Assembly (NCBI GenBank): GCA_003667245.1
Contig: RCNN01000183.1
Span: 1 to 64,000 of the forward strand
Source of the DNA: Heterostelium multicystogenum
Taxonomy: Eukaryota > Evosea > Eumycetozoa > Acytosteliales > Acytosteliaceae
DNA length: 64,000 bases
Direction: 5' to 3'
Made by a program: the position numbers and the translations under genes
The notes under the pieces: generated by a model
Seen by the model: the letters and a program-made list of their open reading frames with translations, nothing else
What the model was told of the DNA's origin: nothing
Databases searched by the model: none
In this document: piece after piece, positions 49,319 through 60,364 of the stretch
How the letters are laid out: every line of letters begins with the position of its first letter
Numbering within the stretch: the stretch's first letter is position 1

Positions 49319-49331
49319 ACCGGAGGCGGTG
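49319..49331 (+). promoter_or_regulatory. post-tRNA palindromic motif (ACCG-N4-CGGTG)
   Basis: ACCGGAGGCGGTG starts 22 nt after the tRNA-Ser discriminator. The same ACCG-N4-YGGTG pattern follows the other two tRNA genes of this window at 19 nt. Function unknown. Confidence 0.5.
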
Positions 49332-49369
49332 ATGTAGTTCCTAAAAAATAAAAATGTAACAACAACAAC

Positions 49370-49581
49370 ACAATTTTACAATAATTTATAAAAATATCAA
49401 TTTTACGAAAAAAACACCTTAAAAGGAAAAACCGAAAGAATCTTAATCAGATTAATAATTTACTACAAATAGAGAAACTAACTAAGTATATTATTTAATT
49501 TGATTAAGGTTCTCTATTCAGAGTTTAGTTTGAGTTATATCTTTTAATAACAATAGGTCTGATCAACCTATTATTTATTAA
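49370..49581 (-). repeat. dispersed repeat B, copy 1
   Basis: About 210 bp that match 60163-60364 in opposite orientation with roughly 80% identity by eye. Both contain GGTTGATCAGACC, GTAAATTATTAATCTGATTA and TTTCGGTTTT. It begins about 72 nt downstream of tRNA-Ser. It has no ORF and is likely a remnant of a mobile element. Confidence 0.75.
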
Positions 49582-49622
49582 AAAAATTTTCCATAAGGAA
49601 GAACAGTGGATGATGTGTAATA

Positions 49623-52783: not shown

Positions 52784-54241
52784 ATGGATAAAATTAAAAC
52801 AATATTACCAAATTCTGAAGATTGGTGGAGTACTATAATTGGACTTGGTACATTTGCCTTTTGTTTTGTCATTTCTTTCTCTACCAAAGAAGATTACACA
52901 ACTGCCCCAATATGGACTAACCCAAAGACATTTTTCACGGACTCTTACTATTGGTGCTCCATTCCGATTGCATTCGTTATCTTATTAGTTGGAACAATGA
53001 CTTCTATGAAGTTTATGGACAAAAGGTTCGACATTCGAGGCTTCGTATTTATTTTTGCTTTAACTATTCTTTGTATCTTCATTGGAAGTCAAAAGACCTT
53101 TCATGACATCGGAGTAGGAGCACCTGTTTGGTCAATTGGCTTTGGATTTATATTTTCCAATATCATTTTCAGAGCGTACCATGTATCCATAAATTATACC
53201 AAAAGAGAAAGATATCAGTCAATTCAAGATTTTTCTTTAGATGAGAGTTCCCTCCTTATACCTCAAGAAATTAAGTCAATTTGGACAGAAGATTGTACCC
53301 CTCAATGGTTGAAAAGTGTCCTTCTCGATGAGTATTTTATTAAGGTTAGCTTGGTTCTACTGGCAATGGATCTAACTAAAGTGAAAGATGTGTTTGTTCC
53401 ATCGATTATAGTCTCTTCCGATACCATTTTCCTATTCATCTTTCTTTTTGCTATTGGATGGAAAATTTGGGTTCTTGATCATGATACTGCCATGGTTGCA
53501 GCGGCTGCTGTTTCAATATGTGGTTCATCTGCTGCCAATGCCATTGGGTCAACTATTGGTGCTTCAAAAAGTGCCATATCTTTCCCAATTGCAATCATGG
53601 CTATATGGACTGTACCATGTATTGTTCTAATGCCAATTATGTTTACCAAGTGGTTGGAGGATACTTTGCACTGGTCAAGTCGTCAAGGAGGAGCTTGGAT
53701 CGGAGGAACTATTGATACAACAGGTGCTGTAGTTGCTAGTGCTGCCACCATTGACGATGACTCTAAACAATCTGCAGCCATTGTCAAAATGCTTCAGAAT
53801 TGTCTGATTGGTCCAATTTGTCTCATCGTTCTTCTAGGTAACATCTGCTTCAGTCGTGACAAAGAGTCCAACATAACTTTTAAAAAAGTGTTGGAAATCC
53901 TATGGAACAGATTCCCAAAGTTTGTACTTGGTTTCATTGTGGTTTGTTCAATATTGATTGCATTGCCCAGTTCCGATTGGAAAACTCAGATCATCAATAC
54001 CTCCTTGCTAGGAAGTTCATGGTTTGAAACAATGGGATTCGTTTGTATCGGATTGAACATCAACATCACAGAGATCTGTAACAATCTAGGTGTAATGAAA
54101 CTGCTCGCTTTCTACCTGTTAGCGCAAATATTCGATATGTTTTACAACAGGTTTATTAACAAACTATGCATTTTGACAACTTACTACTTAAACCCAGTTA
54201 TAAATAGCCATGCCACCCAACAGCCACCTGTAGCTATTTAA
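52784..54241 (+). CDS. YeiH/UPF0324-family membrane transporter, copy 1 (intact)
   Basis: A single-exon ORF of 485 residues with no break. It opens EDWWSTIIGLGTF, as in bacterial YeiH-like proteins annotated as putative sulfate exporters. It has about ten hydrophobic segments. The family core is clear: AAAAVSICGSSAANAIGSTI, SFPIAIMAIWTVP, then GAWIGGTIDTTGAVVASAAT and QSAAIVKMLQNCLIGPICLI. The C-terminus is WFETMGFVCIGLNINITEI. The family is mainly prokaryotic, and together with the lack of introns this suggests acquisition from bacteria. The transported substrate is not known from sequence. A second, broken copy lies 670 bp downstream. Confidence 0.85.
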   Translation: MDKIKTILPNSEDWWSTIIGLGTFAFCFVISFSTKEDYTTAPIWTNPKTFFTDSYYWCSIPIAFVILLVGTMTSMKFMDKRFDIRGFVFIFALTILCIFIGSQKTFHDIGVGAPVWSIGFGFIFSNIIFRAYHVSINYTKRERYQSIQDFSLDESSLLIPQEIKSIWTEDCTPQWLKSVLLDEYFIKVSLVLLAMDLTKVKDVFVPSIIVSSDTIFLFIFLFAIGWKIWVLDHDTAMVAAAAVSICGSSAANAIGSTIGASKSAISFPIAIMAIWTVPCIVLMPIMFTKWLEDTLHWSSRQGGAWIGGTIDTTGAVVASAATIDDDSKQSAAIVKMLQNCLIGPICLIVLLGNICFSRDKESNITFKKVLEILWNRFPKFVLGFIVVCSILIALPSSDWKTQIINTSLLGSSWFETMGFVCIGLNINITEICNNLGVMKLLAFYLLAQIFDMFYNRFINKLCILTTYYLNPVINSHATQQPPVAI

Positions 54242-54908: not shown

Positions 54909-56348
54909 ATGAATAGTGTTGTTGAAAAAATTAAAAACTTGTTCTCAACTTTTTAATACAGAAGACTGGTGGAGTACTGTCATTGGTTTGGGAACATTTG
55001 TATTTTGCTTTGCAATCTCATTTACAACCGATGCAAACTACTATACACCACCTTCATGGTCGAACAACCCAGCTACATTTTTCACTGCTTCTTATTATTG
55101 GTGCTCTATTCCTGTTATATTTTTTATCCTCCTAATAGGAACAGTGATACCGCTAAAGTCAATGAAAAAGAAATTTGATATTCGCGGTTTTCTATTTGTA
55201 TTTTTCTTGACTGTATTCTGCATCATCATTGGACATCAAAAGACTTTGAATGGCGTTGGACTTGGTGCTCCTGTTTGGTCTATTTGTATTGGAATTGTCT
55301 TTTCTAATATCATTTTCAGAGCGTACCATGTTATTGTGAATCTTATCAGAAGAAAGGGCTATGCTAGCATTCAAGAATCACCACTTGAAGACTGGGAAAC
55401 CCAGATAGTTCTACATCTTTAAAGCAAGCAGCTAAAACTGAATCGATTTGGACAGAAGATTGCACTCCAGAATGGTTGAAATGTGTATTGGTTGATGAAT
55501 ACTTTATCAAAGTTAGCTTGGTTCTACTGGCAATGGATCTGATGAAATCTAAAGATATATTCATTCCTTCAATCATGGTATCATCTGACACGATATTCCT
55601 CTTTGGATTTCTCTTTATATTTGGATGGAAAGTCTGGAGGCTTGACCGTGATTATGCAATCGTATCTGCAGGTGCTGTTTCAATCTGTGGGTCATCTGCT
55701 GCCAATGCCATTGGATCAACTATTGGTGCTTCAAAAAGTGCTATATCTTTCCCAATTGCAATCATGGCTCTGTGGACTGTGCCTGTCATTCCATTGATGC
55801 CAGTCATGTTTACAGAATGGTTGGAGGATACTTTGCACTGGTCAAGTCGTCAAGGAGGAGCTTGGATCGGAGGAACTATTGATACAACTGGTGCTGTAGT
55901 TGCCAGTGCTGCCATTTATTGATGACGATGCAAAACAATCGGCTGCCATTGTCAAAATGCTTCAGAATTGTCTGATTGGTCCGATTTGCTTAATCATTTT
56001 GATTGGTAACATCTGCGTCAATAGAGACAAAGAATCTGATCTATCTTTTAAAAAAGTGTTAAAGATACTATTTGATAGATTCCCCAAGTTTTGTACTCGG
56101 TTTTTTTTATAGTTAGTGCTATCTTGACAGCGTTGCCAAACTCTGATTGGAAAACTCACATCATCCAAACCTCATTACTCGGAAGTGCTTGGTTTGAAAC
56201 TATGGGATTTGTTTGTATCGGATTGAACATTCGAATAACAGAGATTTACAATAATCTGGGTGTGATGAAACTCATTCCGTTCTACCTTTTTGCACAATCT
56301 TTGGATATGGTAACAACAGGTTTACTTTCAAACTATGCTTTTTCTTAA
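54909..56348 (+). pseudogene. YeiH/UPF0324-family transporter, copy 2 (four frame breaks)
   Basis: Start at 54909 (MNSVVEKIKNLFS). The frame is lost in a T run near 54950, then continues EDWWSTVIGLGTFVF. Further breaks occur near 55400, 55918 and 56095. All blocks of copy 1 are present in order, including SICGSSAANAIGSTIGASKS, GGAWIGGTIDTTGAVVASAA and KQSAAIVKMLQNCLIGPICL, so content is complete but the frame is not. Parts of the core are almost identical in DNA to copy 1 (about 71 bp around 55818-55890) while the ends differ more, which suggests gene conversion. It could be a functional gene spoiled by sequence errors, since similar breaks affect conserved genes nearby. Confidence 0.8.
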
Positions 56349-57199
56349 AATTTAAGAAATTCACTAAATTTTGGAAATATTTAATAAAGTGGTTTTGTTA
56401 AAACTAATGATACTAAAATCGATCATGATCATTTATCAAAAAAACCAAGAAAGTTATTTTAATCAAGATATTTTTAAAGGAGTAATAAATGAAGTACTTA
56501 TTTTGTTTTTTTTTTTTTTTTTTAAGGAGGTAATAAAAGAAGTATTAAGCTTTATTTAATTGGATGGCCGGAACCATCAAGTTGATTAACAACTGAGAGT
56601 TTGTATCTTGAGGAACTAAAATGATGCTATCTACCAAAGACGAGAATGAGGCAAGGGGGTAGTGTCGTAGTGTCAAAGTCACGCCTTCTGCAGATTTTCT
56701 CTTGTTCAATTAGGTTAAGTTCTAACGACGGCCAATGAGAGTCGACATGGTGAGGATAACCCATGATTTCTATGCACAAGCAGTATTCTGTACCTCCACA
56801 TCTGAGCTGCCTGCATCAGCCTGGTGGGGACAGAGAGCTCCAGTACCTGAATAAGCTAATGATTCACCCAGACATACGCTTGAAAGAGGCAAACATTTAG
56901 CGTCCCTACTAAACGTTGATTAGGAACTGTAGCCTGGGCATAGAAAAGTGACTGCCAAAAGGGCGGTAACGAAAAAGCTAGGTGTAATGCGAAAAAGTGA
57001 AAAAAAAGGAATTTGGATTTCGATGACAAAAGAGCGAAAACGATGCAAGAAATAGCTATACTAAAGTAGAATAGTTAAGAGAATGATAAAGAACGATAAG
57101 TATATAATTAACCACATCAAGTGGCTCTTGATATATAGATTTTTTTATCGGATGACTTAAACCATTTTTTTTTACAACAAAAATGAAAAGACTTAAGTA
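56349..57199. other. unassigned region with a GC-richer segment
   Basis: After T18 (56506-56523), the stretch 56560-57000 is clearly GC-richer than surrounding intergenic DNA yet has no sustained ORF on either strand. It contains a perfect 6-bp hairpin (ACTGCC-AAAAG-GGCGGT) near 56951-56967. It might be a structured RNA gene or a mobile-element remnant. I could not match it to U snRNAs, SRP, RNase P or rRNA motifs from memory. Confidence 0.4.
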
Positions 57200-57614
57200 T
57201 TTTTTTTTTTTTTTTTTTTTTTTGTTGTTATAACCCATACAGTCAGTTGTTTATTTAAGGTAGGGTTTAGAAGCCTACAGATTTCTTTTTACAACCACAG
57301 GCCGGTTGTGATGACCATCATTTTATAGAGGCATGACTGCCTATTATTATTTGGAGCAAGGTGTTTCAACAGTGGACTGTTAAGTATTTCGAAGCGACAG
57401 AAGATTTTAAGAGTACACCAATGGTTTTACGTAGTTGAGGGCTTCGCTTGTCAATTTACATATTCTTCATGGCGGGATGGTATCATACAGACTTGAGAGT
57501 ACATGGGTTCACTGGAAGTGTATGGGGAAAAACTGGAAAACCCGGGATTCGAACCCACGACCCAAGGCGTCACAAGCAGACTACCATACCACATCAGCTA
57601 TTCTGCCTTGGGCA
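57200..57614 (-). mobile_element. tRNA-derived SINE-like element, copy 1
   Basis: The 5' end at 57614 (TGCCCAAGGCAGAA) is followed by an A-box (TAGCTGATGTGG) and, 44 nt later, a B-box (GGTTCGAATCC), the exact tRNA spacing. About 300 bp of tRNA-unrelated body follow, then AACAAC and a 24-nt poly(A) (T run 57200-57223 on the plus strand). It matches 59163-59573 over its full length with only about ten differences. It lies 91 nt downstream of tRNA-Val in the same orientation. No clear target-site duplication was found. Short ORFs inside it (57435-57636) are not genes. Confidence 0.85.
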
Positions 57615-57674
57615 AATTGCATTATCGATTAGATAATTTTCTTTTTTGGAGCGACTGACCAAAAAAGTATGAAA

Positions 57675-57688
57675 CACCACATGCGGTG
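57675..57688 (-). promoter_or_regulatory. post-tRNA palindromic motif after tRNA-Val
   Basis: CACCGCATGTGGTG on the minus strand, with ACCG starting 19 nt after the tRNA-Val discriminator. It differs at one base from the motif behind tRNA-Ile. No T run precedes it here. The first T6 on the minus strand (57661-57666) lies beyond it, so the primary transcript may contain the hairpin. Confidence 0.5.
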
Positions 57689-57705
57689 CTTCTTTGGTCA
57701 ATATA

Positions 57706-57778
57706 TGTTTCAACTGAGGATTGAACTCAGGACCCTGACCGTGTGAAGGTCATGTGATAACCACTACACTATTGAAAC
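57706..57778 (-). tRNA. tRNA-Val(CAC)
   Basis: The acceptor pairs GTTTCAA with TTGAAAC, with discriminator A. The D arm is GTGT-AGTGGTTA-TCAC. The anticodon arm is TGACC-TTCACAC-GGTCA, so the anticodon is CAC. The T arm is CTGAG-TTCAATC-CTCAG. All stems are sound and there is no intron. Confidence 0.95.
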
Positions 57779-58458
57779 CTTAATAATATTTTCAAACGAT
57801 TTTGGGTATATTCAAAACTAACCGTTAACATTCTAAAAATAAATTAAAAAAAAAGTTAACAAACATTTTTCCACTCTAACCAATGTCCACATTCACCTTA
57901 GAGGTATCTATTTGAAAGGAAATGATTTCACAATAAATTTAACGGGGTTGTATTTATATCAACTCCAATTACTATATAGATAATAATATTTCTAAAGAAT
58001 ATTGGAGCTCTTGGTTATAGTAAGTATTATAGGTATTGTAGTGATTAGTATCATAGATTGATTAATACTAATATATTTCATTAGTATATATAGCTAAATA
58101 TTCCAACTCTGAAAAGATTAATATTTTCACAAGGCATGCCAGTGCACTGGTATGTTTATCATGTTTTATCAATACAAACTAGTTTAAGCTAATTTATATT
58201 TGTATATCCAGTATTTAGATCAGATTGGTCACCATTTTTTGTATGGATCAATCTCTAAGAAAAATTACGCCAAGAATTTAGCAGATATCTATTTTAATTT
58301 GGAGAGACTTAATTGGAATGGTGGAACATTCATCACTTGTAGCTTAAATTTTAAATAAAAAGAAGTAACCATCTACTCTTTGTGTTTATGAAGATACAAA
58401 CAACACTGCATTAATGTACATTGAAGCTAATGTATTTTTAACAGGTGCGGGAATCTTT
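57779..58458. other. intergenic region
   Basis: AT-rich, with several inverted ATTA/TAAT stretches near 58030-58110. No gene or RNA was recognised. Confidence 0.5.
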
Positions 58459-58762
58459 TTATTTAGTATCGGATTTCTTTGAAAAAAAATAGGTCCCTAC
58501 AGATCCAAGAACACCACCTGCAACTTGAGTTGTTACTGCAATACCAGCAGCACCGACTGACTGAAGCTGTGAAACCAAAGCACAGGTACCGAGTTTACTC
58601 ATCATCGTTGCCCGCAACTGTGCCTTTTCCAATGCCACCAACTCCAAAACCTACCATAGAAACAGCTCCTGTTGTAGCAATAGGTAAAGTAACTGCAACT
58701 GCAACTCCTACACCAGTGACAAGTGCTACATTTTTAATATTATCTTTTTGTTATTAAGTTCA
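58459..58762 (-). CDS. ISG12/IFI6-IFI27 family small membrane protein
   Basis: Start at 58762 (MNLITK; one A too many in the A5 run). Then VALVTGVGVAVAVTLPIATT, GAVSMVGFGVGGIGKGTVAG, a break, and MMSKLGTCALVSQLQSVGAA with GIAVTTQVAGGVLGSVGTYF. It ends KKSDTK at 58459. The run of Gly/Ala-rich hydrophobic helices with G-F-G-x2-G-I, then M-M-S and L-Q-S-V-G-A-A-G, is the signature of the ISG12 (IFI27-like) family, small proteins of mitochondrial or nuclear-envelope membranes. About 100 residues is normal. It sits alone between two divergent tRNA genes and the SINE copies. Confidence 0.78.
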
Positions 58763-59018
58763 TATCTGGTTGTTATAGAAATTATAATTTCTATTTGTTT
58801 TTTTTTTGATTGTTTTCTATTTTTGTTTGTTTTTTCAACATTATTTATGCTTTTATGATTTATAAAATGAATGATACAAAGGATACAACCATAATTATTG
58901 ATAAGAATATAATTGGAGATTCTAACAACCACTTGTTTAACATCAATTGATAAAATGTTAAAAAACTAAACTAAGAGATGTGGCACAAAATATGACGATG
59001 AAACACAAAATGTCATAA
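58763..59018. other. spacer between ISG12-like gene and tRNA-Ile
   Basis: AT-rich 256 bp containing the ISG12-like promoter and the tRNA 5' flank. The minus frame at 58726-58932 here is not a gene. Confidence 0.45.
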
Positions 59019-59110
59019 GCTCTCGTAACTCAGTCGGTAGAGTGTAGTACTTATATTACAGTATAGATTAGCAATGCTAAAGGTCGTGAGATCGAAACTC
59101 ACCTGGAGCA
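59019..59110 (+). tRNA. tRNA-Ile(UAU) with intron
   Basis: The acceptor pairs GCTCTCG with CTGGAGC with one mismatch, discriminator A. The D arm is ACTC-AGTCGGTA-GAGT. The anticodon stem TAGTA/TGCTA closes a loop CTTATAA once an 18-nt intron (about 59056-59073) is removed after position 37, the canonical intron site. The anticodon is then TAT. The T arm is GTGAG-ATCGAAA-CTCAC, whose loop begins A instead of the near-universal T54. So the gene may be a variant or a pseudo-tRNA. Confidence 0.8.
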
Positions 59111-59113
59111 AAA

Positions 59114-59118
59114 TTTTT
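59114..59118 (+). terminator. Pol III oligo(T) terminator of tRNA-Ile
   Basis: Five T residues starting 4 nt after the tRNA end. Confidence 0.75.
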
Positions 59119-59127
59119 AAAAACTTT

Positions 59128-59141
59128 CACCGCATGCGGTG
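59128..59141 (+). promoter_or_regulatory. post-tRNA palindromic motif after tRNA-Ile
   Basis: CACCGCATGCGGTG is a perfect palindrome, extended by CTTT/AAAG on either side. ACCG starts 19 nt after the tRNA discriminator, as behind tRNA-Val. Confidence 0.5.
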
Positions 59142-59162
59142 AAAGTACCTCTTTGACTTAAA

Positions 59163-59573
59163 TGCCCAAGACAGAATAGCTGATGTGGTATGGTAGTCTG
59201 CTTGTGACGCCTTGGGTCGTGGGTTCGAATACCGGGTTTTCCAGTTTTTCCCCATACACTTCAAGTGAACCCATGTACTTTCAAGTCTGTATGATACCAT
59301 CCCGCCATGAAGAATATGTAAATTGACAAGCGAAGCCCTCAACTACGTAAACCATTGGTGTACTCTTAAAATCTTCTGTCGCTTCGAAATACTTAAACAG
59401 TCCACTGTTGAAACACCTTGCTCCAAATAATAATAGGCAGTCATGCCTCTATAAAATGATGGTCATCACAACCGGCCTGTGGTTGTAAAAAGAAATCTGT
59501 AGGCTTCTAAACTCTACCTTAAATAAACAACTGACTGTATGGTTATAACAACAAAAAAAAAAAAAAAAAAAAA
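59163..59573 (+). mobile_element. tRNA-derived SINE-like element, copy 2
   Basis: Head TGCCCAAGACAGAA, A-box TAGCTGATGTGG from 59177 and B-box GGTTCGAATAC from 59222 (one base off consensus). The same ~300-bp body as copy 1 follows, ending in an A21 tail (59553-59573). Folded as a tRNA, the 5' GACAGAA and the sequence after the T arm (GTTTTCC) can form several acceptor pairs, as expected of a decayed tRNA origin. It lies 52 nt downstream of tRNA-Ile in the same orientation. Confidence 0.85.
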
Positions 59574-59588
59574 CATATAAAGTTTATT

Positions 59589-59662
59589 TGTTCCAATTTA
59601 TTGTCATCCTTGTAGCTGTAGTCTTTGTTTTAGTGTTATAGTGACAAGTTAGGCTGGATTCA
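59589..59662 (+). repeat. left terminal repeat of TRIM-like element
   Basis: TG...CA-bounded 74-bp repeat, preceded by TTTATT. Confidence 0.65.
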
Positions 59663-60054
59663 TTTGTTATCGCTTGGTTATCGGGTTTATATAATATTTG
59701 TATCCTCTATCTGCTTACTATCAATCTACTATCAATCTTCATCATCCCTGTGTATCCAAGGTATATCTTCGTGTATCCTTGGTAGTAGTGTTTGTTTACT
59801 TACAATGGGATCTGAAGGGCTTAATTTCGCAAAGCTCTTTAGTTCCATCAAGACTAATGCTCGCTTCCTTGGCACTCACAAGCAGCTCTTCATCCCTGAT
59901 TTATGTCATGGTGAGAGTCTACTTCAGGAACGCTGGCTCATTCAACACCGGTATTCTCGACAAGTTGAAGTCGTTCCTTGTTGACCCTAAGCCTATCAAC
60001 TTCCCTCTGAATGTTAAAATCCCGATTTATATATATATATATAAAGTTATTATT

Positions 60055-60127
60055 TGTTCCAATTTATTGTCATCCTTGTAGCTGTAGTCTTGTTTTAGTG
60101 TTATAGTGACAAGCTAGGCTGGATTCA
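60055..60127 (+). repeat. right terminal repeat of TRIM-like element
   Basis: TG...CA-bounded 73-bp repeat, followed by TTTATT. It is one T shorter than the left copy and has C for T in the CAAG(C/T)TAGG word. Confidence 0.65.
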
Positions 60128-60162
60128 TTTATTAAACTTAACTCTGTAAAGACAATCTAATT

Positions 60163-60364
60163 TAATAAATAGAGGTTGATCAGACCTTAGTTATTAAAAG
60201 ATATATCTCAACTTAACTCTGTATAGAGAACCTAATCAAATCTAATCAAATAAGAAAACTTAGTTAGACTCTCTACTTAGAAGTAAATTATTAATCTGAT
60301 TAGGATTGTTTCGGTTTTCCTTTTTAAGTGATTTGATATTTTTATAATTATTTGCAAAATTGTG
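60163..60364 (+). repeat. dispersed repeat B, copy 2
   Basis: Matches 49370-49581 in reverse complement with about 80% identity by eye. It lies just beyond the TRIM-like element. No ORF. Confidence 0.75.

Follow-up and report, generated by a model that had tools for sequence, protein, structure and literature searches.

The stretch of DNA analysed here, referred to as the window, comprises 64,000 nt of Heterostelium multicystogenum sequence and contains two copies of a 410-bp unit, which are 98% identical by BLAST and lie on opposite strands (Table 1). A protein search with one host protein gave Heterostelium album PN500 as the source of its best relative (83% identity), followed among other named species by Polysphondylium violaceum (51%), so that the host is regarded as a near neighbour of H. 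album PN500 but distinct from it. An earlier note on this DNA had described a pair of near-identical elements of about 410 bp that carry A and B boxes at tRNA spacing and follow two distinct tRNA genes, for Val and Ile, at 91 and 52 nt from the tRNA 3' end and in the same orientation. The elements, the boxes in both copies, the gaps and the orientation are as described, and so is the tRNA-Val gene, which is called by both ARAGORN and Rfam. The second tRNA gene is recognised by Rfam with 40.6 bits against a cut-off of 29 and is missed by ARAGORN with introns allowed or not; its putative assignment as an intron-containing tRNA-Ile with the anticodon TAT comes from our reading of the sequence and not from a tool call.

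The inverted similarity within the window ends at the ends of the elements, so that the pair does not represent one inverted segmental duplication. A comparison of the flanks revealed no recognisable target-site duplication at either copy, and both 3' flanks contain other repeat debris. Behind copy 1 this debris includes a LINE C-type non-LTR fragment that is 93.6% identical to a copy at locus C92 and matches LINE C at 86% over its final 73 nt. Repeat debris likewise follows tRNA-Ser(AGA), the third of the tRNA genes in the window, namely a fragment 65 nt behind it (49364-49582) that is common to C171 and other loci, and a further palindrome site lies at 49319-49329 in addition to the two listed in Table 1. 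The window also holds a tandem gene duplicate (52919-54139 and 55066-56309) in blocks that are 71-80% identical, the listed relatives of which carry PF03601.

Table 1. Features in the window at and around the two copies of the SINE
Feature	Position	Strand	Basis
SINE copy 1, full length with poly(A) tail	57203..57614	-	sequence, BLAST; 98% to copy 2
SINE copy 2, full length with poly(A) tail	59163..59573	+	sequence, BLAST
A box of SINE copy 1, TAGCTGATGTGG	57589..57600	-	sequence reading
B box of SINE copy 1, GGTTCGAATCC	57545..57555	-	sequence reading
A box of SINE copy 2	59177..59188	+	sequence reading
B box of SINE copy 2, one change versus family consensus	59222..59232	+	sequence reading
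tRNA-Val(CAC) gene, 91 nt upstream of SINE copy 1	57706..57778	-	ARAGORN; Rfam 61.2 bits
Intron-containing tRNA gene, 52 nt upstream of SINE copy 2	59019..59110	+	Rfam only (L001 1357-1448)
Palindrome-like motif, 18 nt behind tRNA-Val	57676..57687	-	sequence
Palindrome ACCGCATGCGGT behind intron-containing tRNA gene (Ile by reading)	59129..59140	+	sequence
LINE C-type non-LTR fragment with poly(A) end, behind SINE copy 1 in the same orientation	56499..57148	-	
Repeat fragments behind SINE copy 2, common to other loci	59584..60364	.	

Copy number, anatomy and retroposition marks of the SINE

The genome that was searched comprises 29.7 Mb in 528 contigs. Three conserved patterns of 33-36 nt, allowing up to three mismatches, gave 67, 61 and 64 matches and their reversed versions gave none, so that the recurrence of the unit is not due to chance. 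A total of 99 loci were fetched; together with the window they form 72 blocks totalling 280,158 bases, 64,000 of which belong to the window. These blocks contain 88 SINE pieces of at least 80 bits, 65 of which are near-full (query start at or before 60 and end at or beyond 370) and 23 smaller; pieces below 80 bits were left out of the association table, and copies that the three patterns miss through divergence, as well as unscored candidates (40 of 103 were scored), are possibly absent from all counts. The genome-wide search proposed in the earlier note has uncovered a multicopy family with at least 65 near-full copies, and the notion that only the two copies of the window exist, within one inverted duplication, is at odds with 30-nt 5' flanks that are distinct in 64 of the 65, which speaks for independent insertions. 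The consensus was built from 54 copies that reach position 380 or beyond and is 406 nt long; the mean divergence of these copies from it is 1.2% with gaps excluded, and the family is young.

The unit is a tRNA-derived SINE composed of a tRNA-like head, a non-coding body and a poly(A) tail. The A box (consensus 15-26) and the B box (consensus 60-70) are conserved in the 54 aligned copies at 96-100% and 98-100% per position, respectively. Among 49 distinct tRNAs of this genome, the three best-scoring ones in comparison with the head, Val, Cys and Leu, reach z values of 10.0, 8.5 and 7.7. The minimum-energy fold of the head gives no cloverleaf, the Rfam tRNA model does not report the head at an E value of 0.05 in 20 sources, and the RNA fold of the window SINE copy is not stronger than that of shuffled sequences (z +1.26). 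The longest stop-free stretch amounts to 60 codons, and in the lack of a long ORF the SINE is not itself a member of the TRE3 elements, which encode an ORF1 and an ORF2 with APE, RT and zinc finger.

We infer that the SINE is transcribed by Pol III from its own head, but the extent of the transcript may be limited. A TTTT run at consensus 75-78, just past the B box, is present in 54 of 54 aligned copies, and a TTTTT run at 83-87 in most of them (its first T in 94%). Since the longest T-run behind the tRNA genes of this genome measures 4 or 5 in 38 of 67 3' flanks, termination by Pol III within the SINE may be frequent; the conserved runs may thus speak for partial termination and count against a full-length Pol III RNA. 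Some copies (C38:46524 (+), C49:121832 (+), C473:42101 (-), C135:99705 (-) and C92:108071 (-)) are preceded at their 5' end by short extra pieces of the head, roughly 6-14 nt from GCCCAAGGCAGAAT, which could reflect a jump during reverse transcription or a head fragment already present at the site.

Target-site duplications were sought in the 53 copies that start at or before position 5 and end at or beyond 395. Duplications of at least 6 nt flank 32 of them and duplications of at least 8 nt flank 30 (median 9), compared with a mean of 1.15 and a maximum of 5 in 200 shuffles that paired the flanks of different copies. The readable duplications span 7-14 nt, and the remaining 21 copies, which include both window copies, have none of at least 6 nt. 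The unit is bounded by its poly(A) end and, in these 32 of 53 copies, by the duplications, and the SINE is therefore not part of a longer autonomous element, a possibility that the earlier note had considered.

At least two SINE pieces are present at 19 loci. In ten of these a near-full copy of 96-98% identity lies nearer to the tRNA gene than remnants of 74-91% (C60 also has one of 95%), a young copy has inserted into an older one at C70 and C265, and the other seven contain interrupted, deleted or similar-aged pieces.

Placement behind tRNA genes and the candidate machinery

The distance and orientation of each near-full copy to its tRNA gene were tabulated. A tRNA gene lies upstream in the fetched DNA of 57 of the 65 near-full copies, and all 57 have the orientation of that gene, which contradicts the possibility that copies across the genome show no tRNA association. 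Measured from the tRNA 3' end, 43 copies start at 45-127 nt, one at 152 nt, one is fused to the gene (-1) and 12 start at 240-1486 nt, which places 44 of the 65 within a zone of 45-152 nt. The chance of hitting this site and strand is 0.0005-0.002 per insertion under an assumed number of 200-800 tRNA genes (a genome-wide search with RF00005, in which 63 of 1723 candidates were scored, gives no tRNA total). The tRNAs ahead of the 44 close copies belong to 19 named isotypes, with four left unassigned. This diversity, the distinct 5' flanks and the locus-specific duplications leave next to no chance that the family spread segmentally through duplication of tRNA genes along with their SINE. C492 and C493 do have identical flanks, and a pair of tRNA-Arg genes at C32 has a common 3' flank, though with the SINEs at 50 and 76 nt; segmental spread is refuted for all but one pair.

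Other repeats fill part or all of the gap in 10 of the 11 distant copies that were compared, and comprise LINE C, LINE D, LTR-like or unnamed repeats; for the insert in the gap at C137 there is no match, but the SINE that it interrupts has its head start at 138 nt, and the twelfth gap, at C60, contains another SINE. Upstream of the eight near-full copies without a tRNA gene in the fetched DNA lie LINE D at C56, C70 and C92, a Skipper-type element or other repeats at C217, C77, C80 and C168 (a chromodomain LTR element of the Skipper type at C217 and C77) and an LTR-like repeat at C340. On the same strand and 5-6 kb upstream, C56 and C70 have a tRNA gene, C77 a B-box match and C340 a B box with palindrome, while no tRNA was located for C92, C80, C217 and C168 in the fetched DNA and among the upstream matches. 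SINE fragments at C18, C352, C458 and C467 also have no tRNA gene in the fetched DNA, and C458 has a same-strand B box with palindrome 4.6 kb upstream with LINE C in between. A 182-nt repeat is found between the tRNA gene and the SINE at C27:93164-93345 and C362:32546-32727, and its last 52 nt precede the SINE at C467:3500-3551.

It is proposed, with considerable confidence, that this is a tRNA-derived SINE that is transcribed by Pol III and inserted behind tRNA genes by the proteins of a TRE3-like LINE. Pol III would make the SINE RNA from the SINE's own head, and the proteins of a resident TRE3-like non-LTR element would dock on the Pol III complex at tRNA genes. These proteins would take up the SINE RNA via its poly(A) tail, introduce a nick downstream of the tRNA gene and insert a copy of the RNA there by target-primed reverse transcription. 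In this way the SINE would inherit its integration site from the LINE that it exploits, and newer insertions near the tRNA gene would push older ones outward and give rise to layered insertions.

A different account of the same distribution holds that insertion is random and that copies persist only in the gene-free zone behind the tRNA genes of a compact genome. Dictyostelid genomes are described as gene-dense (PMC5006619), and unrelated retroelements, including the Skipper-type chromodomain LTR element, pile up in the same zone. Selection of this kind is nevertheless very improbable as the cause, for it leaves unexplained the single orientation of all 57 copies, the narrow zone of the 44 close ones and the insertions into sites near tRNA genes that were already occupied.

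The resident elements that could supply the proteins are varied, with 60 matches to RVT_1 in the genome across several families. Families C and D are classed as non-LTR elements by their ORFs and poly(A) ends; LINE C has its best match in an RT protein of D. discoideum (38%), and for the C-terminal 416 aa of LINE D no relatives and no Pfam domain were found. Among 39 fragments of LINE C and D, 27 have an upstream tRNA gene in their block and all 27 are on its strand, counts that are no census because the loci were chosen for holding a SINE. The other 12 have no upstream tRNA gene in the block, and four of these (C95, C92:104.8 kb, C64 and C49) are antisense to the tRNA gene of the block, the one at C49 having a same-strand B-box match upstream. 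Where a LINE fragment is the first element behind the tRNA gene, in five cases, it starts at 51, 59, 73 and 84 nt for LINE D and at 53 nt for LINE C.

These fragments bear on a further alternative, in which targeting resides in the SINE RNA itself, whose tRNA-like head would bring Pol III factors so that any LINE inserts there. The head does retain its A and B boxes in the 54 copies, and TFIIIC at box B is reported to guide the dictyostelid TRE5-A (PMC5911963). However, LINE fragments whose available sequence starts far from any 5' end share the range of distances and the orientation, although a tRNA-like LINE head is possible. In other organisms tRNA-headed SINEs do not, to our knowledge, gather at tRNA genes, and targeting by the SINE RNA is considered improbable.

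Insertion by TRE3-like proteins raises the matter of the partner. Comparison of the 3' end of the SINE with those of LINE C, C', D and three other poly(A)-ended sequences revealed no shared tail beyond the poly(A); in local alignments against these six 3' ends, which represent a subset of the LINE families, the fractions of shuffles reaching the score were 0.848, 0.564, 0.048, 0.198, 0.07 and 0.394. A BLAST match of 87% between SINE positions 373-411 and LINE D ends was rejected, as it consists mostly of poly(A) and the alignment failed without it. Naming one partner LINE by the length of its duplications was likewise dropped, there being too few clean LINE duplications. Given the missing common tail, a relaxed, Alu/L1-like mobilisation through the poly(A) by a TRE3-like LINE fits best, with several candidate partners. 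The earlier suggestion of a parasite of TRE3-type machinery accordingly agrees with the data in site, orientation, poly(A), duplications and the presence of resident non-LTR elements in the same zone behind tRNA genes, but no common tail was found, so that the use of such machinery is inferred.

The tRNA genes themselves are marked by a CpG-rich palindrome. In 66 of 68 tRNA 3' flanks, which omit one SINE-fused tRNA and one repeated flank, it starts 13-28 nt behind the gene in 65 at a match of at least 0.7, as the ACCGCATGCGG type in 52 and as the ATGCGCGCAT type in 13. At a match of at least 0.8 it is present in 54 of the 66, whereas two control intervals each gave 0 of 66 and shuffled sequences 6 of 1320. 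A B box followed after 20-50 nt by GCATGCG occurs 83 times in the genome and one followed at that spacing by TGCGCGCA occurs 36 times, with no occurrence of either reversed pattern. Many of these places have no listed SINE, and the palindrome is also seen behind tRNA genes without one. A narrow search of open-licence papers gave no literature match for the motif.

All 44 close near-full SINEs lie beyond the palindrome. The standard deviation of their distance is 23.7 from the palindrome, 23.1 from the B box (39 of 44 copies) and 24.0 from the tRNA end, and with such near-equal values position is silent on which mark is read. External B boxes are a known feature of D. discoideum, where they are reported behind about 80% of tRNA genes. 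A more far-reaching model, unlikely but worth stating, is that tRNA genes carry a docking platform made up of the palindrome and the Pol III complex, which would be read by TRE3-like LINEs and hijacked by the SINE via the LINE proteins. The B box that each SINE adds behind a tRNA gene may then serve as a new external B box and draw further insertions, and the external B boxes of D. discoideum could be relics of SINE heads.

Meaning and relation to known systems

Work on how LINEs choose their targets usually centres on the LINE itself. A SINE without any protein that lands in the zone and orientation of a LINE would imply that the choice of target comes with the machinery that is borrowed, and would provide a short and genetically simple reporter for TRE3 targeting. 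It would also add a second level of parasitism to the safe havens at tRNA genes. In line with the earlier note, which knew of no such SINE in dictyostelids, neither a dictyostelid nor a tRNA-gene-bound SINE turned up in the titles and abstract starts of the open-licence literature. A survey of five dictyostelids in 2016 (PMC5006619) used TBLASTX, and its main text does not contain the word SINE; a non-coding element would escape such comparisons at the protein level.

The closest counterpart is TRE3, whose insertions in D. discoideum are described as lying 40-150 bp behind tRNA genes and in their orientation (PMC5911963). TRE3-A to D are listed for D. discoideum and TRE3-like elements for P. 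pallidum (PMC5006619), and TRE3-A ends in oligo(A) (PMC5911963; PMC5006619). The SINE shares this downstream zone, the orientation and an A-rich end, and its targeting is thus TRE3-like. In contrast, TRE3 is autonomous with two ORFs, whereas the SINE is a non-coding unit of 410 bp with a tRNA-like head.

SINEs of the Alu/B2 type have a Pol III-type head and are dispersed; unlike the SINE described here, they are not bound to tRNA genes. Their mobilisation by L1 offers a parallel in that they have a poly(A) tail and no homology to the LINE beyond it (PMC3747384). The stringent SINE/LINE pairs that share a tail, such as those of the eel, resemble it as non-autonomous partners of a LINE (PMC3747384) but differ in the common 3' tail, which the SINE does not have with any of the six 3' ends compared. 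Skipper-2 chromoviruses finally occupy the same target zone, with insertions reported 54-136 bp downstream of tRNA genes in P. pallidum (PMC5006619), but as LTR elements with an integrase they reach it by an unrelated mechanism.
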